A stretch of 64,000 nt of DNA from Cliona cf. orientalis. Taxonomy: Eukaryota; Porifera; Demospongiae; Clionaida; Clionaidae. This document shows positions 8,606 to 34,500 of this stretch, in pieces; positions within the stretch are counted from its first letter, which is position 1, and each line of letters begins with the position of its first letter. The position numbers and the translations under genes were made by a program. Under the pieces are notes generated by a model. The model was not told the DNA's origin and searched no databases. It saw only the letters and a program-made list of their open reading frames with translations. Where the stretch lies: positions 2,728,001-2,792,000 of the forward strand of contig OZ005695.1 of assembly GCA_963930775.1 (NCBI GenBank). The letters run 5' to 3'.

Positions 8606-11600
8606 TCAGTTACCAGTGCCTCTTAAATTGGCATAGTAGTGCACGATGTGCTTCCAAGCAGCTACTGCTTGGTCCAGCTTGATACTGGCTGGAAACTTGT
8701 CCACTTGAGGGAGCTCGATGCCATACTGTTTAAGAACTGATTGAAGTGCATCCTTTAGTCTGCAAGAATGTAATTGTTGAAGGTGATGCAAATACTATGA
8801 TTGCGCATGATCCTAGAAGAGTAGTATGCACTAAAATGAGGGAGGATACCTCCCTAATCAGTGATACTATCACATACTGATACACAGAATAGTCTCAATC
8901 ACTGTGACATTAGGCATGTGCTCTAACAGGATGCATATGCACTACAGCGGATACATGGGAGACTGTAAGGTCTCTTTCTACTGCCGAAACAATAGAAATA
9001 AACCAGTATACAAAGTAGCTACATGTATGAAGAATGCAATTGGAGTCCTGATCCATATTATGCATATACAGATGTCAGGAAGGCAATGTCGCAAGTATGG
9101 ACTATAATAACTTTCTTTGTATCCCACCTATGATGTAGATCAAAGCTACCGCCTGAGCAGTATAATGCTGGATATTGCCCTGTGGCTAGGACAATATCAT
9201 GATATTACCTTGTGGTACAGCTGACTACTACAGGTACCTGGCCCAGTGGTCAGACTCAGACACCACACTTGTAGTGCTATTACAACAGTGGGGATACAAA
9301 CCAGTTAACACACCCCTACTATATAGTGCTGTATGGAATAATGTACTCGTGCGTAACCACATACAGCCCTCGGGCTTCGCCCTCATGCTGTACGTGGTTA
9401 CTGCACTTGTGCATTATATTCCATACAGCACTAGTAGGGGTGTGTTAACTATAACGTACACAATGCCAAGTAACTGATTCAGAATGTCTTCCCCAGGTGA
9501 ACCAAATTTGAATTCCAAAATAGCAACACAGCACGTAATCATAGTGATAATCATATTATCAATTACTATTGTGGTGCTTCTCATCATAACATGCATTGTT
9601 ATTGTACCAAAACATGCACACCATTTACATATTGAATACCCTATTATTCTCATTTTGTCTTTCACAGTACTGCACGAAAGCAGCACTTCATAGCATACAT
9701 GCAGGTACTTACGGCCGATTGTGCTCCTTCATGGGACAGTGTTTGATGTATGTCTCAATGAACTCATAGAGGGTCCCCAGCAGAAGTTCAGGGTCAAACT
9801 GACCCAGACAACGATCTAGAGCAGCAAATTGATCTTCTCCATCTTCATCCTTAAGCAGCACACGGAGAAACTTGTGGTGGATGGAGTCAAATGGTTCCTG
9901 TCCCCTGAGGCAGAGCTGCCTGGCTAGTTCAACTGCAATGGTCTCCCAGAGGGACAAAGCATGTTTCAGCTGGCAGGATGTCTTTGCCTGAGAAAACAAA
10001 TAAATGAATATGTGGTAAACAGAATTCTGGCTATTCAATGCACAGTGTGCATGTACTTACTTCTTTGCTGAAGTACCTCTTCTTCATTCTCAAGGTCTTA
10101 TCAATGTATTCCCCTAACGGTTTGTCAGCTTTTCCCCCTCCCGAAGAGAGGAAGCCCAGAACAATCTCTACAACATCTAGTGCCTCACGGAGACGATCTG
10201 GAGTAGGAAGGTCAGCAATGATAGCTTGTCTCACCCTCTGTTCCAATTTCTCCTGCATATTAGAATCATCCTCATAAAATATTATTATGGTTGTACCAAC
10301 ATTCTCACCTGAGGCTCCACTTTCTTTCTTACGTCAGCAAAGGTGCTTGTGGTGTAGATATCTCTTTTGTAAATTACTTGAGGAATGTCATCAACGACAA
10401 TCATTGGCTTTCCATGGATGAATCGGTTAAGAATATGCCTCTCTAGAGCCTGGTGGTCATACTTCACATCTTGCCCCTTTCCAAGTTTGAGTGAGTAGTG
10501 GCAGTGGGAGAGGATGATGGAAGGGAGCTGGTGCTCATAGTCCAGGAGGTGGAGGCGATGGAGGTGAGTGATGGGAACCTTGTGCTCACTCCAAAATTTT
10601 AGGGTACTAAGATAATGATAAAGAGAATGTGATAACACTCTGAGTTGGTTAGCCACAGTTAATTTACGTCTGCTCATTTTCTCCCACAAGAGCTCTGCAC
10701 CTCTCAATGAAGTTGTTATGTGTCAGAGTGAGAAAGTCAACCAGAGCAGTAGTGCACACGCCAGCCTCTGAAGTGGTAGGAACAAGGTACTCCATTGTGG
10801 TGTTGTCACTGATGACAGTAACACAGAACTTCTCTTCAACAGGTAATCGGCCTGAAAAAAAATTGAGTGTTGTAAAACAAGGTTGCATAATTTTTGATAG
10901 CTATCTAGCATCACCATGGTTTTTCAGCTTGTGTCCAACGAGAGCCCATGCTGCTTTGACACTGCTAATCATTTCACAGTAGTCATTCTTTGTCGTTTCT
11001 GAATCACAATGAATTGTTTAGAAACCAAACTTGAGCATATCAATGTATATACCATTAGGTAGCTCCTTAACGAATGCCTGAATTGTCTGTTTCTTGACAT
11101 CCTTCCTGTCTATTTGCTGATTGAATTTGTCATAGAGACACTGCTGCAGCCTGGCTATGTCTGGAAGGTACTGGGTGGCACGCAGTTCAGTTTCCTTTGA
11201 TGTGTGTGCATAAGAGTGTGTGTCTGTTGGAGCCTATAGGTACACAAAAGTTGATAGATGAACGTACAGCTTGCAAGAATTCACTGAGGATGGGATATTT
11301 TTCCTTCATTTTTCCCTCTTGCAAAGTCTGTCGGAGATGTTCAAGAGTGATCCTGGAGCGGTATGTCCATAAATGTGGCTCCAGACTTTCTTCTTTATAT
11401 TTTACTTTCTCATACACCAAATAGAAGAGCTGATCATGATCTACATAATTATTATACATAATAATATTACCGTAAATCTGGAAATTTTCATCGTAAAAAT
11501 ATTTTCGTAGTCGATGGTGGCTACGAAAATTAGCAGGCACTATTAATTCTAATGCGGTAAGGGGTCGTTCCTACGAAAATTTTTTTACACGAAAATTTAT

Positions 11601-12255
11601 CATACGATAGTTTCTTTACACGAAAATTTCCAGATCTACGGTATATCACAATCTGCTATGCATAAGTGTGTATTGTATTAACCTTGCTTTTCATCTTTAG
11701 CAACATGGTCTATTGCCTTAGTTAAACTCTGATCAAGGGTGGATAGTACAGGTTGAATGTAGTGATGATTGAACACTCTTTCCCACTCCTTTCGATCCTC
11801 CTTAGTTTCAAGAGAGCTCACTGTTTGTATTGCTTCACCTGATGTTTCAGAGGCCATGGCATGTCGTTGATTTTACTCATGCACATGCAAAACATGTAAT
11901 AGAATGAAACAAACCAATATTAGGTGGGTCCGTTGTAAGAATTTGTCGAAGAACAAGGTGTATGATCATGACAACCTCGTCTAATCCTTTTCTGGTATCT
12001 CTCCCAAGCAGTTCAAGATCCTTATCCAAGTGGGCCCAGAAGAACTCCGGTAAATCCTTTGGCTGTATTTGTGGTGTGATTAAGGTGATAATTGCTCCCA
12101 GAGAAGATTGATTGTTGCAGGTAGCCCATATGAAAGCTGAATGCATCAAAGCTCTCAGAATGCAGACAGCCCTGGCTGAGAGGTGCCTCTCTGGAGTAGT
12201 GTGCGCACGGTTTTCTGGAACTCCAAGGTGATAACCTCTCTTGGTGGTATCTTGA
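8606..12255 (-). CDS. Mysterin coding block 9: C-terminal domain and stop
   Basis: Exons 11915-12255, 11683-11838, 11268-11440, 11053-11194, 10915-10998, 10668-10851, 10309-10606, 10061-10252, 9713-9987, 8606-8759. Conserved anchors are GLDEVVMIIHLVLRQIL, WTYRSRITLEHLRQTL, PILSEFLQA, TTALVDFLTLTHNNFI, DVVEIVLGFLSSGGG, CQLKHALSLWETIA and a tail ending ANLRGTGN. This is the conserved C-terminal domain that follows the RZ finger in RNF213. Introns of about 60 bases separate several exons. No poly(A) signal was assigned; 8405-8605 is AT-rich 3' flank. Confidence 0.85.
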
Positions 12256-13550
12256 CTGCATTAGTATATATAATAGTTAGATACTGTTTAGGTTTGTATG
12301 TTATTTAGAAAACCAAAGGGCTGCATGTAGGATCCAGGGCAAATCAAGAGTTCTACTGAGCCCTGAGGTCTTCTAAATCAGATAAAAACTGACTAAAATT
12401 AGTTTAGATCCTAGCAACAATGCCCATAATCTTGACATGTAAACTGCTGCTTAGCGACAACCATATTAATCATATAGGCAACAATCTTTATGAGTATTTT
12501 ACAGAACTTTTATAAGTGACGTATAATCCGTAAAGTCTGGTTAATAAGCGCACATGCTTATTAAGTGCATATTTTTTAATAAGCGCATGCTTCCTTCCTG
12601 TTGTTAAGTATTGTCTAAAAGACGACAGTACATAATATTCACTGTTTGATCAAGAGTTTTCCATCCTCTACATGGCTAGAACTAGCTTACCAACCTATTT
12701 TTGGATAGCCAGTTGCATGAGATCAGCTATACTCAACACTGTGATGTTCCACTGAGACGGGTTCGGACTCTTGATCTTGACTTCGAAGCAAGTCTCGCCA
12801 AAGAAATCGGCTATTTTTCCAGTTTTCTTCCGGCTTTCAATTATACTCCTATGAACTATTACTGAGCTTATTCCAAGAATCGTTATGTTCATAACTTGCT
12901 AGTTTTGTGATTGAGTGCTCGAACATGCTGGCAGTGGGTGGGGCCAAAACTTCATGCACTCGCTATTAAGCGCACATCGTCTAATAGGCGCATATTTCCT
13001 TACCACCAAGAGTGATAAGCGCATGAACTTATCACAATTTACGGTATGTGATGTTTACAAGCGGATATGGGACAACCTGCTTGGTGTAATCAGATTTTAG
13101 TATTTGTCACAACTAGGATCTAAATTATTATAGTAAATACCGTATTATCTCTAATTTAATGGACATCTCTAATTATCCGGACACCATTTCGAATTATTTT
13201 TTACCTCTAATTACACCGGACAATCAATGAAGTTTGAATTTTTGTTGATCTAATTATCCGGACATCGTTGTTCTAATGCGGACAGCTCGTGTGTTGATTG
13301 GAGACTCTGAGGTGATCCTCTCAGTGGAAAATGGCTAAAGCGTGGTACTGCTCGAGCAAAATTTGCAATTGACAGCTGCTTCTTTGGTGGTACGAAGGAG
13401 GCGAGTTGTTCTCTTTCCCACCATGAACAGGGAGCTCCAGGTACCGTCTCATTTTCTCAATCTCTGCTGCTGTTCGATCGCACCTCCATTTGACCGAATG
13501 TGCATGCGCAGGGTTGCATACAGAGGGGGGGGGGGCGCACTGAGATCTCC

Positions 13551-13584
<34 letters not shown>

Positions 13585-16500
13585 AGAATTCCATAATAAT
13601 ATACATGTAATATATACAGCACAAATAATATGATTGCATACACAAGCAAAAAGAAAAAGTTTGTTCAGCATTATTGTGTGATTTATTTACTAGTACAGTG
13701 TAGTCCACTTAAATCGAATCTCAAAATCCATGAAAATTATTTGAATTAAACAAAAATTTGAATTACAGAGATCCATATAAACCACTGTATAGAGACCCTG
13801 CAATGCTTATTAGTGGAGCATTCAGCCATATATGAAGCTTTAGAATTGTTCTGAGAGTGGTTTAGGTAATAGACACTTATAGTTTCATATCTCAAGGAGG
13901 ATTGTAGTGATCTCCATGTGATCTATGTTCTATATTTATATAAATATGTGTACTTTTGTATGCTAAAGCTAGCTGTAATTTTTCTAATTAAGAGAAACTT
14001 GAAGACCAATTCAAATTTATGTATTAGCTCTATGTAGGGAATCTGAAAGCATTTGAATTAGACGAAAATCCGTCTTAAGCAAATTTGAATTAAGTGGACT
14101 ACACTGTATATACGTATGGCAGCGGCGCATATACATACGTAAGAGATCACCCCCCCCCCCCCCCCCCCCCCCCCCAGAAAAAAATCCTGTATGCAACCCT
14201 GATGCGTGAAAGCGTATTCTAATTCATCGGACACTTCAAACGCCAACTATTTTCGTGTGCTCTAATTATAGCGGACAATTGGCCAAAATAATTATTTTTC
14301 TGGTGTCCGTTAAATTAGAGGTAATACGGTAATCTTCTTATTTTGTTGAGCAATAAACTTACGTGTTTATGAGCTCACTAATGGTCCCTGGTATCCCACT
14401 GTTACCAACTGGTGCCTTGCACACCTTACACACACCAGTGTGATGTGCTCGTCCATACTATTAAATCAATCCTACAGTAAATCATTATCCTGTTGCCATG
14501 GTAGACACTATTAAACTCACATTTCCAATGAAAGTTCTATGACCACTGGGACATTCTGCAAATACATTTTCAATAATAATAAATATTGCATTAATTTTGC
14601 TACTACCATAGAATTGTCCAGTTTTGTCTCCCGCCGTCATAGTTGACTGTAACTCAGTTTGGGGATCCCCTTGCATGGTTGGAAGGAAGCATTGCTACAA
14701 TAATAAAACACAATAATCAATATTTTATGACAGTATAAATCATTCCATCACTATAGAGTAGCACATAATGATCTCCAATTTGGATAGTGAATCATCATGG
14801 ATGTAGCTGAACAATAAAATAGTAGTTGATCAATTCGTCAAGTTTTAAGACTTAGTGATCGTTTTGATATGCCTTAGTATTCTGGCCCTTTATGATTTAC
14901 ATTCTCCAAGGTTGAGCTACTAGATGAGGTAAATTATCAAGGTTTACTACATACATTTAAGAGAGCTGGGTTGTTTAGTGTGTTCACAAAAGGCAGCAGT
15001 ATATCCAGTTTCTGTCGGCCCAAGAACACAGCGACTGCATGTACCACGACCCCCAAGATAGTCCTGTACCGAAGTGGTTGTTGCGGAGACACAACCATCT
15101 GCTCCAAGACCCTTCCTCCCTGCTGGTTGGCAAGCAGTGCCCTGGCTGTTAGTTGTAGCTCAGCTGAGAATAGCGGGCAGTTCTTGATAAATTGGTTCAG
15201 CCTCTCTAAAGCCTATTAAATTGTGTATGTCACAGAGGATCTTTCATTTAGGGAGGGGGGAGCAATGAGTCAATACTACAATCAAACACTATGGATCCAC
15301 CAACCCCGTCCCTGCATAATCATTTTAAGGCCTCCCCAGGCTACATACTCATGGCCATTTTGACCAAAAACTTAATGTTGACGAAAAAGATTTGCAGTAT
15401 AGAGGGGCAGAATAGTACACTATTAGGGGAGGGATATCCCTTAATTCTTTCCTTCAAATTGAACACTGAAATAATATAGAATTCATAAAATTATGCTTAC
15501 ATCATCACTGATTTTGATGGCAGGATTGTCAGTTGTTCTACTGAGAGTGGCCTTTTCATATACTGCCAGTAAGAAATATGGCACATCAGAAGATTTCAAA
15601 GTCTGTAAATATAGTGAAGAGCCAGTACAATAATATATTATTATATAATCCCATGCACTGCTCTAATTCACAGTCAGTATGTGTACTATAATGCTGCAGG
15701 GACCCAGGAAGCAAAACACCTTTATTTATGGTGGTCAGGCAAGGTCCAAGTGTTTGAACACTCGGACCTTGCCTGACCACCATAAATGAAGGTGTTTTGC
15801 TTCCTGGGTCCCTGCAGCATTATACACTGTTAAAAATGGTGTGTTGTTCAACACACTAAATTTTGTGGTCAGATTTCACTAGTGTGTTGTATAACACACT
15901 TGTGTTCCACTGACACACGTAGTGTGTTGCTGGACACACATGTTCACTCAGTACATAGGAAGTGTGCTATCTGACACACTTTAATAGTAGGTGTGCAAAA
16001 GTGCACACTTGTATGTGTGTTATGATACACTCACAGGGGTGTGGGTATGGCTATGGGGGCGGGGCTACCACGATCATTACGTCATTGGGTTAATTACGCA
16101 TGCGCATATTGATTAGCTCTGTAGCAGCTGCTCTCCAGTTTGAATCTTTGGCCAGCTCTCTGACCGTGAAATGGTGATTTCTAACTGCATAAGTGAGTTT
16201 AGTAAGTGGTTAAGATAATATTTGTGTGCAGCATAAGTGGTTTGTTCCCTCTGCTACTCCAAATAAGTACCACCAGTCTTTTAGGAAGCTGTATATAGCT
16301 AGTAGTTGCATGCTAAACTTGCCATCTTTTTCGGTCACTGTCTCTGGACTGGCCTCCCTTTTAGAGTTTACTTACAAGCAAGGGTGGTATTCTAGACTAA
16401 AATATGCTTATAATCCGTTATTGCCCAGATTAATGGCCATAAGAAGCATGGAGCAATCGTTTCAATACCTGAATGAAAAATGCTCTCTCACCCTTCTCTA

Positions 16501-19500
16501 CTTTAGGGCCATATTTATCAACTTAAAAGTTTCTCTCCCAGGCTGCTCCCCGGCACATAAATGATGTAGCTGCTGATGCTATCAAGCTAAGATGTTACAT
16601 TATGCTAGGTAAGCAAGTTTTGTTGATTTCTCTCTCTCTCTCCTCTCTTACTGAGGCTGCTGAGTCTCTTTCCTTCTGTCATGATATAAAGTGCATAAGG
16701 TGATTTTTCTCTCATTGTATGGTACAGCTGCCACCTGCTGCTTGTAATTCTGGAGTGCCATACTACCAAACATGTCGATCTGGTAAGTTCCATACCCAAC
16801 ATCTCTCTCCCTCCCTCCCTCTCTCCCTGCTTCTCTCTCTCTCTTCCTCCTCTTATTGAGGGTCTTTCCCTCTCGTCTAGTGCATAAAGGATTTTCTCTC
16901 ATTTATACCTGATACAGCTGCCACCTGCTGCTTATAACTTCGCCTCCTGTTGCATCATACAACCAAACACATGTTAATCTGGTGAGTTTCACCTCTCTCT
17001 CATGCACGGATCTCTTTCCCTTTTATGCCTATCTCTTTTCCTACTGCTTAAATAGTCTCGTGCCCAGCCCTCTTTCATGCACACGGAGAGAAGGGGTCTG
17101 GATAAACGTGTATAGGACCCGTGACGCCGAGGAATGCATGATGTCATGTATTTCTGGTGTGCGTGAATAAGAAACGCTAATAAATTAACATTCTATTGGG
17201 TACCAAGGGTGTACAAATGTGCACGCGCACAGTCATTAATTTGCATACCATTCATGCCCGCGCAGTCATATGACTTGATCCGTGCATCTGATTGGAGCGC
17301 ACTGTATGTTGCACGGACGACACGAGCCCTATATACACATTTGTCCAGACCCCTTCTCTCCGCGTGCGTGAAAGGGGGCTGGGCACGAGACTACTGCTTA
17401 ATCTGTCCCTGCATACCGTCTGTTTCCATTATCCTTAATTATGTATGTCTATGAATAATCAGGGCCACCCATACAATGTCATGCTAATTCAGCTGGTTGA
17501 GTCAATGTTTTTTTTTTTTTTTCTGTTTGTCTATTCAGATGAAACAACAGCACCAGCAGCAGCAAGATCGTTGTTTCTCCAAAGTTGGGGTGTATAATTC
17601 AACAACAACAAAAGCTTCTGAACAGTAAAGTACTATAGTAATAGTATTACAGTCATATCTTTTGAACAAATTATTTATAATTGTTGTAATATTGTTATTG
17701 GAACCTTTTTTAATATTGAAAATGAAATTTAATACACATTGTTGCATGTTACAGAAGCACACCACAATCCCTACTGAACACACTAAATAAGTGCTGTGCA
17801 ACACACTATTTCAGTGTTGTAGAACACACCAAACAGAGGGTGTTGACTGACACACATTTGGCGTGTTAAATTTAAGTACCTGTACTGACACACCAAAAGT
17901 GTGTCACCACAACACACTATTTTTAACAGTGTAGTACACATACTCCTACAGCCTCATGCTATAATGAGTTATGGTCAGGAGATGATTAGATAACAGATCT
18001 GAAAAATTCAAAGAGGCTGGAGAATATGAAATATCCTAGACCACGATATCACTTGATGATAGTGATCGCAATACAAAGTAACCACACCCAGGTGGCAGCG
18101 ATTCTAAATAAAGGACCCTGCACAGAGATAGGATTGTCTTTGTCCGAAATTTTCAATTGCTACAATAAAACTTGAGCTAGAAGGCTAATCGAGTCTTAAG
18201 GTTGGGACTATATAATAAATTGGATAGAATGCAGAGGCCACACTCGCCTGCTAGAGTGTCTGAACATTGCTGTCACCCGAGGATCGATCTCTTACTCTAT
18301 ACATGTTTCACGAGTACGTGTAATAATAACAATAATACACTTATTGCCATAGTGAAGATTTTTTTCTCCAAGTATTTTGAATTGCTCTAACCCATACTAC
18401 TGCTATGCACTGTTACCATGGCATAGATATCAAGGATGTCATTCTTTCTGGAGTTGGTGGTCCAGAGTCTTTTAGGATCCGTGACTCCGCTAGCATGAGA
18501 GAAATCTGAATAGCTAGTCTATTGATAGCTAGGCTATTAACTAAGGCTATAAACTTTATTAGCTAGGCTCTTGTTACAAAGCTTGAGTGCTGTATACATG
18601 ATAGTTCAACTTTCTCTTGATATTTGAAGTTTTGAATAATTTATAGTAGACCCGTATAATAAAGTTCAAAGCATCACAGTTAACGTATTCTGAACTTTTG
18701 GCCAAATTATATAATTGCCGGTGGTTTGGAGTAGCTAAGAGGGAGTCAAGTGCTGAATATGTCAACTAGGCCAAGAGCAAAAAGGGTGAGCATCCAAACC
18801 AACTACAAGTATATAGGCCACTGATACCTGTCATGTTGAAGATTTGCCCAAATTCCAACTACAATATCAGTTATAATAATTTATTATGCTACTGATCATA
18901 GGTATTTCTGTCATCTCAGTATACTCTAACTGTGAAGCTTAGCCATGCAAATGGTGTGTTATATTGTGCATAATATATGGACTTCTGGTTGTCTTAACTG
19001 GTGGCCACTAAAGCAATATCCAAATACCTGCATTGTTTCTTTCAGGGCATCAACTTGGTTATCATATATGATACCACTCACAGCCTCTCGGAGGTTCTTG
19101 TAGTGATCTTCATATATGGCAAATGGATCCATTAATTTCTCCTATTAAGTATAATATCATATGTATACACATCTATCTTATATGATCTATACTATAGCTA
19201 TTATTGTTCCTTACTTGGATAGGTTTTAGCTGGGCAGGGATGAGCCAGTCATGAACTTGAGCTGCTACTCTGAGGTGTGGCATACCATATTGCCTCACAA
19301 TCAGCTTAAGGAGGTAGACCACAGGTCCCCCCATGTCCTGTTCATCAGTTGGATCAATGCAGTTGACTTTGTGATCTGAGCATAATTTTGCTACAACTTT
19401 GATCAACTCCATAAAATGATGTCCTTTGTGCTGGTCTTTGAGCACTTCTGCAACAACTGAAAGGGAGTAGCGAACCTTAGCCACACCTTCTAGGTACTCC

Positions 19501-22500
19501 AGTGTTGGTGTATCAGATCGATGCCCTTGAAGACTATCATAGCCTTCATTTAGAAGTTTAGTAGCCTCTCCAATAATGCTAGCTAAGTTACAAGTGGGTA
19601 ATCTCTTACATAATGCATCCTAAAGTAGCATTTGACAAGGAATCAAATTTCATCTACACATATGCACACATACAAACCTCAAAACATTGAATGACTAAGA
19701 GGTAGAGATTATGGTCAGTATTTTCTGCTTGGCCATCCACAAGTACATGACAAGATCTATCCAAATAGTCCTTCAAGTGGTCTCTTACTTGGTGCATGCT
19801 AAAATAATTATTATTGTAAGTACAGTGTAGTCCACTTAATTCGAATTTACAAATCCACCGAATAATTTGAATTAAAGGAAAATTTGAATTACAGAACATC
19901 CACTTAATTCGAATTTTGCTCATATGAATGATAATTTTGAATTAAAGGGATAATAGCTACCATACATAATAATAATCTTTACATATTCAGATGCAACAAC
20001 CTTTTTCTTCTTCTCTGGAGGCAGACTGTCCACTCTATCTACTATTTCTAGCTTTCTTTTAACAGTTTAGAACGTAATACTGCTAGATATAGCTACTTCT
20101 GGCTAGTGCAGCTGCACTCAGCTGCAGCCATGTGATGCCCACGTGATCTATTTTCCGTATACTATATGTGCATGTCCGTATACTAGACCTTGTGCATGTT
20201 CTAATTAAGCGAAAGTGCCATTTCGAATTTATGTATTAGCTCTATGTGGGGAATTGGAAAGACTTCGAATTAGAAGAAAATTCGTGGTAAGCGGATTCGA
20301 ATTAGGTGGACTACACTGTACTGGGTAAATAATATATCTTTAAGTTAACCACCTGTGCTCTAGAAGGAGCTGAAGTAAAAATGATCGCACAGTTGGGACT
20401 TTGTCCCCTGCTGATGTATCATCTTTGTAGGGTGTGAGCTCTTGTGTGTGCAGTTTACCCTTTTCCATAAAGACGATATCTAATAACATATTCACAAGAT
20501 CTGGCTCAGGTGCTGCTTGGCCCTTGAAACACAAGCTGGATACAATCTCCATAAAGAATGCACGACAATTTCGTTTGATTTCTTTCCTCTTCTTTTCATC
20601 CCATTCTTTCTCTTTCTTAAGTGCCTTCTCCATGGATTTCAACTGCAGCTGTACCCCAGTTACCGTGCTGACTTTGAGGAAATCACAGCTCTCTTCCCAG
20701 CGCTGAAACACAGTTGTAACCATGAAAGCATAAATATCCTAGCTAGTTCATGGGTGGGGTTATTAATTGGTACTCACCCCACAGAGTCGTCTTGCCACAA
20801 CTTTCAAATTTCCTATATTGGGATGTTTCAGCATTACCTGCTCTACAAAGAGCTGAGTTGCACGTAATCTACTCCATCTTTGTCTATCAGGTACAAATTA
20901 TCATCTCATATAGTACATGCACATGTCAAACAAAATGTTGTACCTGGCTTTGATGATACGCTCATTTTGGGGCTTTAAACTTAGGATTAAATCAATGGTA
21001 ATCTGAGAGAGCCTAACATGGTTAAGCCACTGGGCTAGGTTGGGATTTGGGTTGTCCTTTTGAAGAGGAGGCTCCAGTTTCTCTATCACTTTCTCAGCAG
21101 CATACAAATGGAGAACCTGTAGGCACGAACAAAATTTAATGCTAAATTAAAATTGTTGTCATAATCATTGCACAGGAAGAATAAAATTTACTATTTCTGG
21201 AACATCTTCCAATGGAAGCATTCCCTGCCAGCTGTACATGATACTTGGTGAGTGAGAAACAAGCTGATGAAACCAAAGAATTGGTGACTTGTTCATCCCA
21301 TAGGCAAGATGCAGTGAAGCAATCATCGAAGTTAACGAAAAATTGTGTTTAAACACAGAACAGTGTACAACGTGATCCAATGCATCAGAGACAAGCTGAA
21401 GGAAGATAGTACATGCATGGAATGAACCAAATCACTAATTTGTTTAGTAGATACTTTTATTTCCATAGCTTTGAGATCTGGACTCTTATGCTTGCATCTG
21501 TGTATGCCCATCACAAAATCATGAAGGTATAAAATGTAAAATGCTTCACAGTTGTCCGGCTCCACTGACTTCAGTACTACTCCTACTGGTGTATCATGAA
21601 CATACTTGCATAGATGCTCATGATGCAATTGCAAACTTGCTCCAGGACCTGGAAATTTTATATCAAGTATACAGTGGAACCCCGCTTAACGGACACCCCT
21701 CAATGGCGGACACCTGCGATATAACGGACAATTTTGAATGTCTGAATTGTATTTCAATAATATGTTCAAACCCCCTCAACAGCAGACACCCCGCTATTCC
21801 GTATAACGGACACTTATTCTGGTCCCGTTCGAGCCTGCATAATAGTGAACAACCTCGCATAACGGACAGTTAGGCTACACCAACCATCAAAATCAGTCGG
21901 TTTCAGCGACCAGTAACTACAGTAAAGCCTAAATATGTCTCATATTCTTGCTTAGGAGCTGTCAGTTGACAGAACCCTCATCAATTGGTCTTTATCGTCG
22001 TCCACAGTAGCGCTTTATCACAGCTGGCCGCGATTATAGGAGGGGCGTGGTCAACCCCTAACCACTGAGCTAAGGACACCTCGCTACAGCGGACAAATGT
22101 TTTGGTCCCAATGGTGTCCGCTTTAGAGAGGTTCCACTGTAATACCATCTAACCCATAGATGTACCATAGTATTGTGTATAAGCATCCATGGGCACTCTA
22201 TAAGGTTGCATGGAAACTTACCTTTTGCCAAAACTTCGTGTCCAAAATTAGTGGGTGGCTTTGGGTAAAACGTGCATAGCTATCAATTTCATCTGAGGTG
22301 TTAGAGAATTATACTACAAGACCCTTAGAAGAGTGCTTGAAGCAATGAAGCACTATTCGGCGCGCAAGCACTGAGCAGTACTGCTTGTCCAACATTACCG
22401 CAAGATGCTCACATGGATCCTATAGGCTTCCTATAGCACAATGTCGGAGTGATCACAAGAATGCACATTGCAAGTGATAGTGTAATATCCAGCAGTATCA

Positions 22501-25500
22501 CGTGTGCAATGCTGTGTCAGCATTTTGTAGCATGCAGAGATAGCCAAGAAGCTTCTCTGCCACGCAGTGTACTTTGATCAGTGATGAACCAGTCGTGTTG
22601 TTGGATCTATATAACCAACCATTTATACTTTTTGAGTTGAAAAGAACCCATCACTGTCTCGTTTGGCCATCGAAAGTTCGCCAGGGAGCGAGGAAGGCAA
22701 CAGTGACCGACAAATGGCGCCATAACTCTTGAACAAAGCGTTTTCAGGGAAAGCCATATGGTAAAAACGTTGAAAACACCATAAAGAACCCTATAAAACT
22801 TTGTTTGCGATGTAAAAACGAGGTAGGCAGCTGATTTTGTGGTAACAGACAGACAGATACACATACACACACATAGAAAGACTACCGTAACCCTGCGCTG
22901 AGGGTTAATTAAGGCAAAATTTCACTTGTGATAGCAACTCAATCTCAATTGATGCTAACTAGCATGTTTCAGACACAAGGCTGTCACTGTATACTAATAG
23001 AAACAAATTTGTGACTCTACCTCCACAAGTCAGCTGTTGGTGGTGAATAGGGTCGATGCAAGATTGCCCTAACAGTTGACTACACGTGTAGCTATACATT
23101 CCGTGGAAGTGTCCATTGATCAATAAAAGTGCTCTTTGGCATGCAGATATATTTTTGGGTACTTGCCATTGCATACACATGGGCACTTGCCCAGAACACT
23201 ACGATATATTATAGTCAGTCAATAAGACACACAGCAATATACCAGCTTTATTTTTGGCACTGTCCCACTGAGAATCCACAGCATCTTTGATGAGCCAAAA
23301 GAAAGGCAGTTTACACTTAAAGTCCCGATCCACCATTCGTCCTCCTAATCCTGCAATTTTCCTTCCTTGTGCCATATCAGAATACCTCAGTTGTTGAATC
23401 TGTGGATCCCCAAACATGGCCAGCCAGAATTGAACCAGAGGTGTGTCTCCAGCTTTGGGATTAATATCGTCAAGGTTATAGTTACGATCAATGCTTGCAA
23501 TGATTTTGGCAAAAATTGGGACAACGATTTCATCGATCTTGCGGGCTAGAACATTTCTGAATGTGCCTCCAACCTCAAGATTATTAGAATTCAGAGCTTC
23601 ACTGAGAACCCAGTTAGAAAACTCTGGCTTGTTATTAATAACCTCTCTCTCTTGAAGGAGTCGATATATATGCATCACCAAAATACCATGGAAACTCTGA
23701 GGATCTGTACATTGGAAGAGAAGTAAAATTAGAATAATTTTTCTACACAAATGTGTAAGCTGTAGAGCATTTGCATGTAATACCAGGCATACAAGTTGTG
23801 GTGTACAGCCTAGGAATTATAGCTTACCCCCATAACATAAAGATGCCAACTGGCCCATTAACAGAGTGAATAAGATGCTGAATTGGTTGGGATAAAATAA
23901 ATTAAACAACTGTTGAAGAACAGATAGAATAAACACATGGCCAACATTAAATTTTAATACATGAGCAGCAAGCTTTTAGAAACATTAATATCATGAATTT
24001 GAAAGAACCTTGTCTGATGCTGTATACTATCCAGCATTTCTATTATTACCCATACATTTCTATGGGGATGTTGTACACCACAGGTGGCTGTAAGTGTGTG
24101 CTAGACCTGTGCTATGCAGACTTATAAATAAATTATTAATGCTCTATACCTAAATAATCTGGAGATCTTTGAATAAGCTTGGTCAAATGTGTCACTCTCT
24201 GTGTTGAGCGATCTTTGCTCGAGTTTTCAAGTCTTGAAGCAGCTGCCTGAATGCAACCATACAGTCTTCTGCACTGGCCACTAGGATACTGCCTTTCCAC
24301 TGATTTATGAGGAGTTAGACAGTTGGATTTGCCATCAATACTAGATTCAGTAGTCAAAGTTTCACCTACAGAAGGTAGTGCAGCTGGCTCAATCTTAACT
24401 GTCTTGTGGGTTTGTGGTGAAAAACCAGCCTGGCATCCACTGTTGCCTACTGACTCGAAGTGTGCAGGATTTTTTTGGTAAGCAATGAGGTCTGGTTCCA
24501 TACTTTTGCTAGTCTGGGCTACAGCCAAGCCTGTGAGTGATCCATCATCACTACCTTGTTTCTGAAATATCGTTTGTCGGTGTGGACCAACTACTGTGGG
24601 CTCTGAAGATTTCCTTGGAAACTCCGGTAACTGTTTGATGGGTGATGATCCTAGAGAAGAGCTTTCAGCTTGCAATTTTGGTTGGTATCCCTCCACATCA
24701 TCTTTTACATCAGCTTCTTCATGAGCACTATGCATTGCCACCAATTCTGGTATTATTTGGTGTACCCCTGATTCATTGTCAATTCCTTCATCCTCTACAT
24801 CTCGACTAGCATTACACACCGGTATTTGTTGAGTAGTCCCTTCCTCTAGGAGACTCTTCTCATTGCTTGATTGAGACATTTGCCTTGGAGTCTGCTCCAA
24901 TATTGTACCAAATAGTGGTGCAAGATCATGGATATATTCACCAATAAAAACTTCACTAATACTAGTTTTTATGGCTTGTAATGGTTCAATACTGTCACTG
25001 GAGGTCTGCCTGAGGTCATCAATGTGTGAAGAGATCCAAGGGTTGCCTTGAAAGCCAACAAAAGAGGAAGAAGATATTTGACGAGGTAAGTTAACAATGA
25101 AAAGCACATGTGTTACACTATCCCGGTTCTGAATTTTGTTCGTATTCAATGCATTAACCCGCTCATCGTATACACGGTATCTCGCGCATGCTATGAGGTC
25201 ACCATTCAAATGACCAGAGTCACACTGAATCACCAAGAGACGGGTCTGCTTGTCTTCTTCGTCTCTCTGAAACATGGGACTGTATCAAAGAAATTTTACT
25301 GAAAAAGATGCATAAGGACTCACACTTGAATGAATAAACTTACCCAACTTTGTTGGAAAAATCAAGCTCTGTATCAAACTCTTGAAGAAGAAATGACTCC
25401 ATCTTTATATCAGCAAGAGCTCCCACATTCATTAACTCTACTAGTTCTTCTTGTAACAAAATATGCCCATGTGTGGTAACCTAGTAATCAGCACACACAG

Positions 25501-28500
25501 ATAAATATGAATGTCTGAGCTTTAGATTAGTCTGCAGCACCTGCAAAAGAAGTCCCTCCTTGGTTTCATCACTATATTGTATGTGATGATATACAAAATC
25601 AGCAATAGATTTGTGGTGCTGCTCTGAATAGTATAGCCTCATGAGCTCTTTCTGTTGGTGAGCAAGGTCTGTCATCATAAGACGAACGAGTGAGTCATCA
25701 GAAGCAGTCTGGAGCAGCAAAAACTGGCTCAATCTCAGCACCTATCCATGAATAATATGCAAAACGTAATATTATGAAGATTGAGGCGGATATCACACAC
25801 AAAAACTTGATGGCTTACAGCATCTTTCCACATATCTGAATCTTTCTTTTCCTTTACAAGCTCTCCTGAAGGTATGTCACCCAAAATGCCACTATCAGTT
25901 AGTATATTCATTGAGAGCCTTTTTCTGAACATCTTGAGCTGTTTAGAAGCCTGGAAAACCACAGCAGCTGGAGTATCTTTCTGGAACCCAATGAAAGCAT
26001 GACCTTCCTTAAAGTTTTTGTTTCCACTGTCATCTCTGTAATGTTTGATATGAAACACCATAGACAAAGTAATGGTCTACATCAGATATATGATACCTTA
26101 TTGTCGAATATCTTTTAATCCACACATTGAAGTCCACCAACACTTCCTGCTGCCAGTCTTTCAATATTGACGAAGTCAAAACAAAATGCTTCTCCAGTCG
26201 GTTGATCAGTGGTGTGGGAAATTTTTCATATACTGTGTTCCTCTCGGCAATCAGGATTAATCTAAAATGACCCAAGTAAATAGCTTCATCCCAAGGTCTT
26301 CCCAACTTTCCAGGTTATATACACACCAAAAAAAAACCGGGAAAGCCCGGGAGATATTATAAAATCACATGAGAACATCATAGTCACATCATATTTAATA
26401 AATCTGGGCAAGATAAACCACTGGAATGCTGTCAACCAACGGTTTTCGAATGTCGCTAGACTTATGCACAGCAGTGGCCAAAGGCTTCACAGCAATAAAC
26501 TAGAGCTCTGCAGAATACACAAGTTTATATAGCACCCATGTACCTGTTCAAGTTGACAACCATTACCTACAGCTAGGTTAAATGTGCACGAGTGGAAAGC
26601 ATACAGCCAGCAGTACAGATGATACAGTTGATAGGCATAGTTAATTATAAATTCAATATTTGCAACACTCATGAATCTTACTATCCTCGTCCTCTGTGGA
26701 GGGCTGAGCAAGAGAAATGATCTGGTACACACTGTATGCACAGGTACAAAGTTTACAGGAAAAATACATGCATGACCACAGGAACTGGTATGAGGCTAGC
26801 CAAGGCTATTACCAAACGTTATAAAGCATTATTATATTAACGATTTCGATGGATTAATTGTGCTTACAAGTCCCTGGATCTCAAGATATAGATTTTCATA
26901 TTGATGATGATAGATAAAACCAGTTTGCTTGGGGTAACTACTGAATTGGCAAACGTTATACGCAAGCCTAGGATTGGCTAGACTTGCAACTAGTAGCTTA
27001 GTAGTGGTTATCAGTACCACTGGAACCCACACATGATGATAATTATTATTATTACATGTATGCCGTAGGTTGACCTGAAACATCACATATCTGACATTAT
27101 GCCTTCCCATTTATGTGCGTGTATGATTGAAAAGCTGGGATTGCCTCAGAACAAGTAAATAATTTTAGTTGGTGCCTTACTTGAAATTATTGTGCACTCG
27201 ACACTTCACTCGGTGGGTCTGAAGTCCAAGATCAACATATCTACTATCACCATAGTGCAAATAGTACTGATTTAGCACATCATACAAACTCTCATAGAGG
27301 TTCTCCAGATTGAGCAGGATCACTGTTCGTCCAGTCTCCATGCAAATCTTTATCTGGTTGATGTTTCTGCAAATCTAACATGGAGGCTACAATTATTATT
27401 CTTTCCCTTACATAATTTTAGTTTTATGATGAGCGTGATCTATGCAATATATTGCACCGAAGCCCGAGGGCACTTTGCACCCGAGGACTGAGTGCAATAT
27501 GTCGCCATAGATCCCGAGCGCATGTTATTTATATCCTGAGGAAGTAAATAGTGGCCCCTGCAGTGTTTTATGCACCACTGATTGGTCAATGGCTCCTCTC
27601 CATGGAAACAAGCTGCTCCATAGAATCAAGTTCAACTTTGAAAGTGACAAGACAAAGAATCATCCAAGTCGAACTTGCTGACTATCGAGGTTAGCTGTTG
27701 ACTGTGAGTAGTCTAGCTGCTAGCTACGAGTATTTTGAATAGCTATCTATCTGTATAGCATTTATAGTCCAGCGTCAGTTTGGTCAACAATAGTAGCATC
27801 CTTTTAATTTCTCAATCAAGAGAAGCGTGGTACACTGCACGAACTTATATAGCTAGCTAGCTCTTGCACGTGGCAAGTATCAATTGAATGATTGCTAAAT
27901 TGCATCCTGTGTGGTGTCAATTAGCGCATATATGCTTCCTGTACCTGTGTAAACAGAGTCTGTAATGTGGTCTGTTGGTGTGTATGCACACAGCTAGCTG
28001 GATGCATTTTTAACTATTCCCTCCCTATACCTATTACACTTCATATTGCTAACTGTTACCTCAGTATTGATCAAGTACACAGTACTAGTAGTACCATCCT
28101 AAAGGAATTAATATCACATTGTACACCCTAAGGGGGTCAATATCACACACTCAGCAGTGCGATATTAAGAATATCTGTAATAAAAACTATGTAAAAGGGA
28201 TATAAGCCACAATTATTGATACTAATTGAGGTTGCAATTATCCTTCCTCATTCACATACTATTCAAATTCAAGTATACCTGAGTGTACTCTCTATCTTTG
28301 GGAAAACTACTTCCAAAAAGAATGAAAGGCTTTTGTGAGACAGTATCATCAGCTGCAGATGGTTCACATCCACTAAGGTCCTTTTCCCTGATATAGTGCT
28401 TGAGAATATCCAAAGCTGCATAGTTCTCAGTCAGGAACAGAAGGTAACGGTTTTCTCTATAAAAATGATTAAGCTGTTCTTGAAACATCAATTTCATAAT

Positions 28501-31500
28501 GGATGGATGGTCTTACCCATGAAAGCTTGTCTCTCTTGTATCTAAGCTGGTCTTGATCAGACCAAGCCTAGAGCAATCAGGACTAAGAATTGGCAATATC
28601 TATTCAAGCACTAAATATAAGATAATCGTAAGGAAAATAATTATAAGTACCTCCGGAACTTGCAGATAATCTTCTGGGTTCACTTCTTTCTTAGTCATAT
28701 TCAACTGCTTACAGAATATTTTTAATGGATCCATTTTATCCAATCCTCCAAAGTTTCTCATAATGGAATGCTTCATTTGAGGCCAAGTCAGAGGTAGACC
28801 TCTGGATTTTTTGCACATCCAATATAACATTTTGATCAAGCTGCAGATTCATATAAACATGTATCACACACACGCACACCACATAAAGACCATCAAACCT
28901 GTAGAAGTCTCTAAGACCAAAAAAGTCTCGATTCTGCGTATCACATATAATTTTATAAGCTTGAGCCAGTGGTTTGAAGTATGGTTGTAATTTATCCTTG
29001 ATTTGATCACTGTCCTCTTCACCACAAATTCCTCGAGCACTGAACTCTAGTTCTCTAGTGTCTGGAGTACCTCTGGTCACCATCACTCCTCTGTTCATCT
29101 TGGCAGGGTCCAGGGCCCAGTTGGAGATACCGATGAATGCTACTCTTTGCTCCCTTTCAATAATCTAAGATAATAAGGTAGTAGTTAAAGCTTTAACATT
29201 TCATTCATCAAGCAATATAGAATATACTTGCCTCATCTTTCCCTTTGGCCCCTGCTCCCTCTGTTCCATCCTCCAGCAGTGGGTGTAGAGCTTTGAGGGG
29301 AAGGTTGGGGGAGTCCTCTGCCAGACCAACTTCATCAAGAACGACTACCGACACAAGCTCAGTGGCATCTGATAAATCTTGAAACTTTTTTGCAGAGGTG
29401 AACACCTCAATCACACTCTCTGACGTGGCTAGCTGACTACACTGGTAGGAAAACATTTGAACCTGTTTAAATTTTTTCAATAAGTTGCTACGAGATGTCT
29501 TTCCATGCATGGAATCCTGGATGATAGACTTGGCCAGTGACTTGGAGCTGCCTGGTTTACCGACAAGGAAAAGAGGGATCCTCAGCTCAATGCAGATGGC
29601 CATCATGAACACATTCTCTCTCAGGGCTGCATTTTTGGCTATGTTTGGACCAAGCTCCATGTTGTCCAGCAATACATTCTGATACCTAGCAAAATACATG
29701 CTCAAATTATAGTTGAATACCATATTGCCGCACACATAGCTCTGCGAAAGAAATAGTAGCCGCCCGCATGCACGAATACAATTAAGTGGGTGTGGCCATG
29801 ATATCGATCGCAAGCCATACATGATCGTTAGTCCAAGGAAAAACATGGAAGAAAACGTCCTTGCCACTGATTGGCTTGGTTATACTGCTTATTTCTCAAT
29901 CATTATATCTCAACTATGTGAAGATCTGTCTTGATAAAGCGGGTCTATCATGTCAATGTCACCAAGAGGTATCGTTCCAAATTTAACAAAACCTGCCCTT
30001 GATTAGTAGCCACACTCTAGCAAGACTGAAATTAATAGTAGCCGCGGCTAGTATTTAAAAAATTCCGGTATATAGAAGATACGGTTACCGTATATCAAGA
30101 AATTTATGCGTGCATCTTATTCATGCGTATTCATGCACAGTATAGCCTAGGCGCATGAATATAATTTATTTTAACCACATGCGCCAGTGGTTTACCACAT
30201 GGTCACACACCAATGCATGCTATATAGTGCTAGTGTGTTGTAGCTAGCTAGTCTACTAATTACGAGTTTAAAGTATTTTTAAAATGGAAGCTCTGCCTAC
30301 ACATCAGCAGACTGGAATCAGATAGAGAGAAACAGGAGGCTAACAAGTAGTATTAGCAGTAGTGCAGCTGTAAATTGATACTACAGCTCAGTGCAGTTAA
30401 GGCATGTCACCAGTGAATTTTTTTTACTCTTTTTAACCTAGATTGAGAGCTTGTTCTAGAAGTATTAGAACATGCAGTGCTGTCATTATGGTACTCATAT
30501 GAAAGTTCAATCCTAGTACTATCCCCTTAACACTAAAGCAACTGCAAACAACAAACCAATTAAGTAAGAGGAGCTTCTGAAGTCACGCCCTCCAAACGTA
30601 AGAATCGAGTTTGCCAGAGGGGAAGAACCCCTTGTATCCCGACCTTAACCAGCATGTTGACAATACTAAAGGTGCTCTAAGTTTTTGTCGGAGCGATAGT
30701 GGATAAGTGCTATAGCTGAAGGGTTAACAGCAGAAATGACAAAAATCGGTGTTCGGCGGCCGACGTTTTCGCATGTAATGGCTGATTGACAAACTAAGGC
30801 AACAATCGCTCCTGTAGAACAGCATTAAGCTTGGCAAAGAGTCATTTGATAGTAGAGACGGAAAATTAAACGAACGTTTAGGGGTCTGGCAAGGATTCGG
30901 CGGCGATTTCGAGGCTAAAACTGCGATCATGCAGCCTTTCCGCCGTGGCTTGTATGCGGTTGATATGGATGACGTCACGTTACAAGACCGCTAATTGGCT
31001 CGTAGTCGGGCGCGCACGCAACAAACGGTGACTGTCCTTAACTGCACTGAGCAGTGGTTTACCACATGGTCACACACCAATGCATGCTATATAGTGCTAG
31101 TGTGTTGTAGCTAGCTAGTCTACTAATTATGAATTTAAAGTATTTTTAAAATGGAAGCTCTGCCTACACATTAGCAGACTGGAATCAGACAAAGAGAAAC
31201 AGGAGGCTAACAAGTAGAAGTAGTATTAGCAGTAGTGCAGCTATAAATTGATACTACAGAAGCAATATCCAACCCTGAAAAAATCAGTAAAATTAGTGAC
31301 CCATTTGTGATTCTGATTGAGACACTGTATATAACTAAATGCATGTACTCTGTGCAAGTATCCCAAGGTTGAAATTCGCATGATTTTGATACCATTATTG
31401 ATCAAAGTGACACTGAACCGCATGATTTTAATGCAACACAAATTTCTTGATTTACGGTATATAATGTTATAACATGTACTAACCAGGTAATCTCTTTTAC

Positions 31501-34500
31501 AAACTGTACTTCTCCTTCAGGTAAGATAAGGGGTGCCACAAAATTTAAAGCTATGTGTTTCTCATACTCTTTCCTGTCCTGGAGTCTGGAGTGGTAGCAT
31601 ACACTAACTGCTAGGATCAGTGCTGAAGTAATTTTCCCCAGAGAATCCTTACTAGTATGCTACATGCATATCATTTGTTCATAACACATAATATGTGGAC
31701 AAACTATTTCAACTACTGTACCAGTGGCTTTTCTTTAGCTTCCTTCTGGAAATCTGGTATCCTCTCACAGAAAAATTTAAAGACAATCATAGCCCTCTCC
31801 ACATCGCGAAGACTAACAAAACTGCACTCATCCTATCAACATTAATTTTCAATCAATAATTGCTACTATAACGGAGACCACTTATTTACTTCACAATTTC
31901 TCATGTAGGCCTGTGAAGCAGCCAATACCCTGGCAATGGCCGACACAATTCCAGGATCCTCCTTCAATAGGGTAGGATGTTTTTGCACCTATGCAGTTTT
32001 AAATGAAATCAAGTCCAGCAATCATGGTAAACAAACGTTGCTTACATGGTCACGGACTATGTGTTCAATATATTCATCCTCTGTACCCTTTTTGAGTTGA
32101 CCAAAATCATAGACTAGTGGTCTCATACTGGGAGGGAGGTCCAACACACGATACACAAGTTCACGAAGTGGAATATGACCTATATACAAGCATAAACCAC
32201 CAGGAAATATCAATATAAACTATATATACCTAGTCTCTGCCGAGTCTCAGAGGCTCCCACGTAGAATCCCAAACCAGCTTTTTCCAATCGTTTGATCATC
32301 TTATCTGAATGCCTGTTAAATGATGCAATAAACAATGACACCTCACTGACCTCAGACAATAAACAAACCTTCTATAGGGGTTGCATGCAGCAATGAATTT
32401 CAGATCATCTGAAACTGGTCTTCCATGCAGCCGCCTGTCACAGAGTATCTCCTTAATCAGACCAATGGCATCAGTTGTGTTGGCTTCATCAAAGAATACC
32501 ACTGTGTCCATGTTCATGGCTCTGTTCTTCTCTGCCTCTTCCTCAGCTTCAGCTATGAATTCACTGATATCTTCTTCTTTGGTTCCTCCATGTACCTAGA
32601 ATCATAAATCATATTATAGACTATGTAAACAGGACTGGAAACCGCTCACATGAGCAATAGAACGTGTATGCGCACTCCGCATTATAGTTTGCATCCTTGG
32701 ATAGCCCCATTGCTATGTCAAAAACGACAACCACAGTGCACTTTGACTGATAACGTGAACTAAAAGTAGTTTCAAGCTTGAAGAAGGCTTCTTCCAGAGT
32801 TGAAAGTTCAATTTCTGAAGCCTCTCCACTCAACGCTGTAGTCCCACAGAATCAAAGAAGCAAAAATGGCCGATTTTTCACGGATTAGTCACTCACAGAA
32901 GATAGCGCATCCCTCAAGAAGTGCTTGTTATTCCAGTGTGTCAATACAGTGACTTTGCCCTTACCACCCTTTGTGGCTGTGACCCCTACACGGTTTGAGG
33001 TAGAGTCCTACAAAGCGTTTCCCCGTTGTTTGCTCTAGCCCTGACTTTAACTTCATAGTTGCTTCCCTTGTGGAAATACAAATAGCTTATTAATTTACTT
33101 GAACTGTTACCTGTAACTTTAAAACTCCGAGATAGGAAAGCACCACCAGCAAGTCTTGCATGTAAGCTACGCAGGTACCGTACTCTCACTGTTGTGACCA
33201 GACAAATTTGCATTAATTTCTTGCCGTCTTCGCCATGATCAGGCTATGACTGCCATTGTCATGATCTCTTGTGTCAAGTTTTACCTAGACAAAGGCTTCT
33301 AGTCTGCTTTCTTTGCGAAGTACTTAACTTACTCCAGTGCTGAAATTAATTCCCAAGTTCACAGAGCCTCCACAGAGGGACAGCTACACAAAAGGTCATT
33401 TGCGCCAAGTGTAATGGTGGACCAGGCTGTCAACATAGCTATCTAGCCAATTTTTGATAGGTGGCCTTCAAATTTACATCGACTCCAGCACTGCCCAGAT
33501 ACCTGAGAAATACGATAAATACTTCCTTACAGTCAAAAGAGAAGCCATCTAGGCGAAACTTGATGCACCTTTTTCATTTGTGGTTTGTCTTAGTATGCTC
33601 CATTACTCACGCCAGTGCGTGGGCGAACTGTCACACGTAATCTTAACTTTATTGCTCTTTTGATGCTATAATTTGAATACCAATGCACGATAAAGCCATC
33701 AATGCAACACAGAGTGCGCAGCCATCGTTCTATGCAAATGTATTGCTCACATGAGCAGTTTCCTATCCCATTTACATAGTCTATATGATCTATGCTAGAG
33801 TCAGTATTTATCACATTGTGCAGTATGGGAAGGAAGCCACAGTATAACCTTTAAAATAAGCATATTTCTTGCTTCTCGTCTTTCCCTGGCAAGATCACAC
33901 ATGTATCGAATAAGCCTTGTCTTTCCACAGCCAGTCTCTCCCATGATCACTACTGGAATACCACAACGGAACCTCATTAGAATAGCAAGGATCTTGATCA
34001 GATTGTCTACTGTAAGGACATAGGATTTGTCAGGGTTATGAGTCTCTATCCCCATCACAGTAGCGATTTTTCCTCTCATGGTATCTTCTTGCCAATGGTG
34101 ATAATCTTCGTCAAAATTTACTCTGTTTCTTATCAGCCCAATGTACTGCTGTGGTGTCAAGATTCGAGGTTCAAGTACATTTTGTCTGAGGTCCACTAGA
34201 TCGCCATTGGAATTAATTATGAAGCCAACAAATGTAAAGCTGTAATCTTTATTAAAGAAGATATATGGGTGACAACTGAAAGAAAAAAGTCAGAGTAACT
34301 GCATAGTCTATACATACATTCAACACTCAATGCAATACCTCTCTTCCCATTTTCTACGGGGCTCAATATTGTATTGCTGAAGTTTACTCGTGTCTTCAAT
34401 AGAATATTCTTTTTCATTACCTCTAGCTACTTCTCCCTCCAGAGATGGAGTTGCAAAATCCTAAATATGTACACATAAATTTTAGATCACCAAAACATTA

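Follow-up and report, generated by a model that had tools for sequence, protein, structure and literature searches.

The minus strand of the window, by which is meant the whole stretch of 64,000 bases that was analysed (40% G+C, no N, eukaryotic in character), carries a gene which, judging from its sequence, is an animal-type member of the RNF213 (mysterin) family, and which probably encodes a natural pseudo-E3. RNF213 acts broadly against microbes, and its gene is one of the major ones in moyamoya disease. In the reading preferred here, to which a probability of roughly 0.57 is given, the protein would be an AAA+ giant that has lost the ubiquitin-transfer chemistry and kept the fold and the motor, working as an ATP-driven motor and scaffold. 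The features that point in this direction are that the RING finger is absent, that the catalytic cysteine of the RZ finger is replaced by a tyrosine, that the RZ histidine is absent as well, and that the three aromatic E2-docking residues of the CTD are missing or replaced in the modelled exons. The zinc ligands of the RZ finger, the E3 scaffold, and the Walker motifs of AAA3 and AAA4 are kept.

A tblastn search with human RNF213 (3,698 residues, starting at about residue 1510 and running to the C-terminus) gives collinear minus-strand matches that extend over 34 kb, between 43.9 and 9.7 kb. In PDB sequence searches the window's own translations match RNF213 chains with best E-values of 4.1e-18, 1.2e-20, 4.4e-11, and 4.6e-30, and the E3-back, the E3-shell, and the CTD scaffold are present C-terminal to the AAA core (E 4.1e-18, 1.2e-20, and 4.6e-30). 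The only chains other than RNF213, two at E 0.44 with the RZ-region query, were disregarded. The gene ends at a TGA stop codon at 8606-8608, while the upstream limit is loose; weak PDB sequence matches of N-terminal pieces set in at about 49 kb (i-Evalues 0.0064 and 4.7e-05), and more may lie further up. The exons (Table 1) were proposed by a purpose-written splice-aware protein-to-DNA alignment that accepts only GT or GCAAGT/GCAAGA as donors and AG as acceptor and penalises stops, and the clean exon borders are thus partly there by construction. The tiny exons in the splice models are alignment filler at low similarity to human and are not claimed as exons.

Table 1. Positions of the features assigned to the RNF213-family gene of the window; a slash marks an exon border.
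Feature	Position	Strand	Basis
RNF213/mysterin-family gene	8606..49075	minus	tblastn, splice-aware alignments, PDB sequence searches
TGMGKSL, counterpart of human AGVGKSL, first P-loop of the core	35521..35541	minus	tblastn, splice alignment
AAA3 Walker A, GETGCGKT (human K2426 kept)	33918..33941	minus	splice alignment
AAA3 Walker B, VVFFDEANT (human E2488 kept)	32476..32502	minus	splice alignment
AAA4 Walker A, GKPGSSKS (human K2775 kept)	29538..29561	minus	splice alignment
AAA4 Walker B, VVVLDEVG (human E2845 kept)	29325..29348	minus	splice alignment
E3-back exon (VLHLYAAEKVIEKLE...IIKA)	20944..21116	minus	PDB search, splice alignment
Upstream intron, 60 bases	20884-20943	minus	splice alignment
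E3-back exon with RWSRLRATQLFVEQVML ... VVARRLCG	20778..20883	minus	donor GGG/GTGAGT; tblastn, PDB search, splice alignment
75-base intron, too short for a RING	20703..20777	minus	sequence, splice alignment
E3-back exon RWEESCDFLKVST...CRAFFMEIVSSLCFKG, starts RWEESCDFL	20353..20702	minus	acceptor TTTCAG; PDB search, splice alignment
RZ finger, first half: ECPSGHRTFIGN, zinc ligands Cys and His kept	14521..14555	minus	splice model, PDB search, Pfam
RZ finger, second half: YGRAHHTGVCKVCKAPVGNSGIPGTISELINT, both zinc Cys kept, without general-base His	14362..14457	minus	splice model, PDB search, Pfam
TAT (Tyr) codon in place of the ubiquitin-accepting cysteine (C4516 in human, C4462 in mouse)	14455..14457	minus	splice model, alignment
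CTD exon ending ...KEHNRP	9713..9987	minus	donor GCC/GTAAGT; splice alignment, PDB search
Last exon, CTD: LKDALQSVLKQYGIELPQVDKFPASIKLDQAVAAWKHIVHYYANLRGTGN followed by stop; no Trp at the E2-docking position, docking Tyr = Val	8606..8759	minus	ungapped scan, PDB search

The first P-loop of the core is presumably that of AAA2. The dynein-like AAA core further has the Walker A and B motifs of AAA3 and AAA4, and all four are intact, so that both main Walker pairs are kept as the initial annotation had claimed; the four conserved residues are those mutated in PMC11549300 according to its available text. Identity to the human protein is 48-64% per 150-residue block in the AAA core (2410-3159) and 25-40% per block in the E3 half (3760-5207), filler exons being included in these figures. 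The lower identity of the E3 half could reflect relaxed constraint or merely a faster-evolving module, as the comparison is with human only. It is very unlikely that the gene is a degenerating pseudogene, or that its missing parts stem from a collapsed or erroneous contig. Several functional sites are lost together, transposon-derived frames (RVT_1 and DDE_3) lie upstream, and the exon borders owe part of their cleanness to the aligner, all of which would fit such an origin; yet the collinear tblastn matches are independent of the aligner, long exon frames are open (382 codons at 24136-25284 and 339 codons at 42077-43096), the AAA core is highly conserved, the last exon ends in a stop, and an in-frame, RING-sized gap inside one exon would be an unusual assembly error.

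The Pfam scan of the neighbouring sequence covered 10 of the 121 open frames, or parts of them. A reverse transcriptase frame of 468 residues (52041-53444, minus; RVT_1, E 1e-35), LINE-type by appearance, lies either in an N-terminal intron or beyond the matched part of the gene on its upstream side. Further up is a DDE_3 transposase fragment (62404-62763, minus; E 6.1e-07), perhaps a Tc1/mariner-like remnant. DOMON domains are found in two plus-strand frames at 764-1593 (E 4.6e-15 and 1.5e-10), which represent a neighbouring gene on the opposite strand. The intron after the RING-region exon (19850-20340, minus) contains words such as TTCGAATTAAGTGGACTACACTGTA together with their inverse, a pattern reminiscent of terminal-inverted-repeat elements, and a similar inverted-repeat stretch seems to recur near 13.7-14.3 kb; both were noted by eye, the latter in translations. 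At the moyamoya founder position (human R4810, R4810K in patients) the window has a Gln, YSSIRGFLS in human being opposite KQTIQAFVK (11053-11194, minus).

The RING finger that should lie between the last two E3-back helices is absent from the gene as modelled. The initial annotation had described exons 20778-20883 and 20353-20702 as adjoining across 75 bases with good GTGAGT and TTTCAG sites, and had concluded that this mysterin gene is without its RING; both statements were confirmed. The three E3-back exons (20944-21116, 20778-20883, and 20353-20702) join in one frame with no stops. From LCG to CRAFF there are 53 residues in the window, while human RNF213 has 92 from LCE to CNSFF (3978-4069), and the shortfall, 39 residues, is just what the human RING spans when its outermost zinc cysteines (C3997 and C4035) are counted in. 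Directly upstream of the RING place 28 more residues are absent, the window having 14 where human has 42. The pre-RING helix is present in both proteins (human VMRTLCECKETASKTLSRFG, window VARRLCGRWEESCDFLKVST, aligned by eye), and so is the post-RING helix. The one passes into the other within exon 20353..20702, where the RING would be expected just after KVST at 20664, and there is thus no intron at this point that could hide a RING. In the PDB search with this region RNF213 is matched with a whole-query E-value of 4.1e-18, and the human chain is matched in two stretches that flank its RING part, a strong one after the RING place (i-Evalue 4.5e-14) and a weak one before it (0.39 alone). The human sequence used for the region is identical to the letters of the PDB chain over 187 residues.

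A RING exon hidden nearby was considered and is ruled out by the 75- and 60-base introns together with two kinds of search. A single-frame pattern scan of all six frames, which would miss a RING split by an intron, finds no RING pattern in the window, and the best tblastn matches in the window are at E 0.061 for the human RING (21 columns, 39.7 kb) and at E 0.16 for the mouse RING. The Pfam scan of the spliced protein that had been proposed as a check gives no RING in the joined E3-back, only three weak matches, all under their cut-offs. The aligner weakly proposed a 48-base intron splitting the RING-region exon, and this was rejected because the exon is open throughout. An AlphaFold2 model of exon 20355-20702 alone has a mean pLDDT of 54.1 and is too poor for assessing the helix join.

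Loss of the RING does not by itself abolish ubiquitin transfer in RNF213. The available text of PMC7311170 describes the RING as inserted between the two last E3-back helices, and replacement of mouse residues 3941-3999 by a short linker left the activity wild-type-like. The RING of the present gene is, as far as the exon models go, missing cleanly between the same two helices, close to this tolerated laboratory deletion. It is also reported that loss of the RING only partly impaired ubiquitylation of Toxoplasma gondii vacuoles, while two bacteria were unaffected (PMC11549300, available text). The assumption made at the outset that RNF213 transfers ubiquitin without its RING is thus borne out by the accessible parts of these two papers.

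When it comes to the RZ finger, the claim that it is kept holds for the metal site but not for the catalytic residues. All four zinc ligands (human C4505, H4509, C4525, and C4528) are kept, and the PF20173 profile gives 39.5 bits in the window against a cut-off of 27; the human pieces reach 75.7 and 76.8 bits. Spliced, the finger reads YECPSGHRTFIGN followed by YGRAHHTGVCKVCKAPVGNSGIPGTISELINT, with the junction form YECPSGHRTFIGN/YGRAHHTGVCKVCKAPVGNSGIPG, and its human counterpart in the PDB alignment is YTCPNGHPCSVGECGRPMEQSICIDCHAPIGGIDH. Between the zinc His and the zinc Cys that follows it the spacing is that of human, and the Tyr, whose spacing to both neighbouring zinc ligands is unchanged, therefore sits on C4516. 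Two histidines (AHH) directly follow it. At the general-base position H4537, or after it in that exon, there is no His, and KAPVGNSGIPGTISELINT contains none; the counterpart of H4537 is Ile by ungapped count, Gly in the splice aligner, and a gap in the HMMER alignment.

None of the splice forms tried restores the cysteine. At the Tyr-bearing junction 18 GT/GC-AG pairs were tried, and none of the four that are open and reach CKVC has a Cys between the zinc His and CKVC; three of these give ...YGRAHH... and one drops that part, while four more pairs are open in another frame. At the junction upstream of the finger, four donors, three acceptors, and three frames lead to one protein, readable in two ways. 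Inspection by eye of the minus strand from 24.0 to 8.6 kb revealed no C-x2-C/H word resembling another RZ second half. Among seven single changes tried in the human RZ, C4516Y is the most costly to the PF20173 score (8.3 bits), followed by the four zinc-ligand changes (5.4 to 6.7 bits), H4537A (3.4), and the non-conserved C4511A (3.3), but the comparison is a rough one, the replacement being Tyr at C4516 and Ala elsewhere. The cost of H4537A is about that of C4511A, the His scoring no more than a non-conserved residue. A base error at the TAT codon (14455-14457) is possible, as a single-base change separates it from a Cys codon.

The importance of the two residues is known from the mammalian enzymes. 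In the available text of PMC12075652, mouse C4462 (human C4516) is identified by cross-linking mass spectrometry as the ubiquitin-accepting cysteine, and H4483 (human H4537) as the general base. Activity is abolished when the cysteine is mutated or the RZ is lost, yet C4462S kept autoubiquitination in vitro (PMC12075652). Human C4516S and H4509A gave no ubiquitylation of the three targets tested, as far as the available part of PMC11549300 goes. The initial annotation had read the gene as a natural RING-less, RZ-only giant E3; the first half of this description stands, while the second fails because the RZ catalytic dyad is needed and both of its members are missing, C4516 being a Tyr and H4537 having no His.

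Tyrosine is by general chemistry a poor ubiquitin acceptor, and this speaks against an E3 that is still active through its RZ finger by a changed mechanism, with the Tyr or a neighbouring His as acceptor or with direct transfer from the E2. Neither member of the dyad is left, the E2-docking aromatics are missing or changed, and C4516S already fails in cells (PMC11549300). The autoubiquitination by C4462S means that a non-Cys nucleophile is possible, which argues against a pseudo-E3, and an active ligase would also agree with the conserved zinc ligands and E3 scaffold, with the histidines that follow the Tyr, with the activity of RING-deleted RNF213 (PMC7311170), and with the in vitro activity retained by C4462S itself (PMC12075652). 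On balance such a ligase is considered unlikely.

The CTD provides supporting, but not decisive, evidence for a pseudo-E3, as part of the E2-docking surface appears to be missing and most of the aromatic dock lost in comparison with human and mouse, the only species compared. According to the available text of PMC12075652 the E2-binding site in the CTD consists of mouse F5093, W5097, D5101, Y5106, and E5108, and W5097A and E5108R lose activity. The last two exons of the gene read ...KEHNRP/LKDALQSVLKQYGIELPQVDKFPASIKLDQAVAAWKH.... In the alignment to the human chain, FRPQWSLRD is opposite NRP and LKD with QWS skipped, which places the Trp in a three-residue gap and the Phe opposite Asn. The alignment to the mouse chain disagrees in detail: there the Trp faces an Arg, and it is the Phe that falls into a gap. 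The two alignments agree in conserving the Asp and in pairing the Tyr with a Val. At 5108 mouse has Glu, human Gln, and the window Lys. The E3-shell arginine of the second docking contact appears to be kept (mouse R4617, human counterpart taken as R4674; context KEMR/KEDR). The E3 half is divergent in general, and the changed docking residues may thus be ordinary drift.

The docking Trp was not found in the modelled CTD exons. Of 130 donor-acceptor pairs joining these exons (last exon from 8759) two are open in frame, both giving LKDAL and no Trp. Five of 93 micro-exon candidates in the CTD intron are open and contain a Trp, none with the human spacing, and micro-exons with a Trp are possible. 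The last exon itself was found by an ungapped scan in which a 50-residue human piece scores 38 and the best other-strand control 29. With the docking piece the control (31) exceeds the best minus-strand match listed (29) and the last exon is not singled out, and with the tail piece a score of 36 at 6245 exceeds that of 31 at the last exon. The tiny exons that the first splice alignments gave for the last ~65 human residues were spurious and were replaced by exon 8606..8759.

As a pseudo-E3 the protein would be unable to accept ubiquitin from an E2 and would consequently not ubiquitylate any targets. The ATPase cycle would instead drive conformational change, oligomerisation, and the coating of targets, which might be pathogen vacuoles or other membranes. 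The RZ finger and the RING-less E3 shell would act as structure, and ubiquitin marks, if any, would come from other ligases. The nearest experimental parallel comes from mouse cells, where RNF213 with a dead RZ goes on coating T. gondii vacuoles in the absence of ubiquitin, but not bacteria, while the ATPase-dead protein coats neither (PMC11549300, available text). RNF213 is reported to be induced in activated cnidarian immune cells (PMC13319465, available text). A more tentative proposal, given clearly less than an even chance, is that RNF213 has become, in one lineage of animals, an immune coat or membrane machine that is E3-dead and driven by ATP alone; this would demonstrate in nature that mysterin's AAA motor is of use, and under selection, without any transfer of ubiquitin.

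Innate-immunity genes are often duplicated in particular lineages, and the gene might be a divergent paralogue in an expanded RNF213 family where a second copy with RING and RZ dyad does the E3 work, in which case the lineage has lost nothing. The view is limited to 64 kb of the genome and the E3 half is more divergent than the AAA core, both of which would fit a paralogue, but there is no positive sign of a second copy, and tblastn sees none within the window. Such a family is regarded as rather unlikely, and it is compatible with reading this particular gene as a pseudo-E3. Highly improbable, on the other hand, is that the form without RING and dyad is ancestral and that both were added later toward vertebrates. 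For the RING a late insertion, which the initial annotation had raised as an alternative, is plausible, as it sits between two helices (PMC7311170, available text). Human ZNFX1, however, is described as having the same RZ finger with the Cys/His dyad (PMC12075652, available text), so that for the dyad loss is simpler than late gain. Judging from ZNFX1, the RZ dyad is most likely older than the present gene, which would then have lost it.

Relatives were looked for with two alignment queries in viral contigs (90 and 32 pattern stretches) and in prokaryotic genome contigs (81 and 597 pattern stretches), and tblastn confirmed none of them; the former result applies to viruses and the latter to prokaryotes, and both are silent on eukaryotes. 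No natural RNF213 without RING or without RZ dyad was found in the titles and abstract starts of the open-licence literature, which also gave nothing on RNF213 with Amphimedon and, among the titles listed, none on RNF213 with sponges as animals.

The precise function of the RNF213 ATPase ring is called unknown in the available text of PMC11549300, where it is also stated that no bona fide RING substrate has been identified. The gene in the window may represent a naturally occurring form, related to a known E3 ligase, that functions independently of ubiquitin. A natural homologue with motor and E3 shell, but with neither RING nor RZ nucleophile nor RZ base, would set the two functions apart with no need for engineered mutants, and would serve as a warning that an RZ zinc-finger domain match alone does not imply E3 activity.

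The gene resembles human and mouse RNF213 in the AAA3 and AAA4 Walker motifs, in the scaffold of E3-back, E3-shell, and CTD, and in an RZ finger with four metal ligands. It differs from them in having no RING, a Tyr instead of the RZ Cys, and no general-base His, and in its CTD, where the docking Trp is not found and the docking Phe and Tyr are missing or changed. ZNFX1 has an RZ-type zinc finger too, but is an RNA helicase rather than a dynein-like AAA protein and has kept the dyad (PMC12075652, available text). The laboratory delta-RING mouse RNF213, from which the RING has been cut out between the last two E3-back helices, resembles the gene at this site; that protein keeps the RZ dyad and the CTD dock and is an active ligase (PMC7311170, available text), while the present gene is without the dyad and appears to lack most of the aromatic dock. 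Human C4516S and H4509A share with it a disabled RZ chemistry and an intact ATPase core, but these alleles are single engineered changes in a protein with its RING present, whereas the changes seen here are natural and multiple (PMC11549300, available text).
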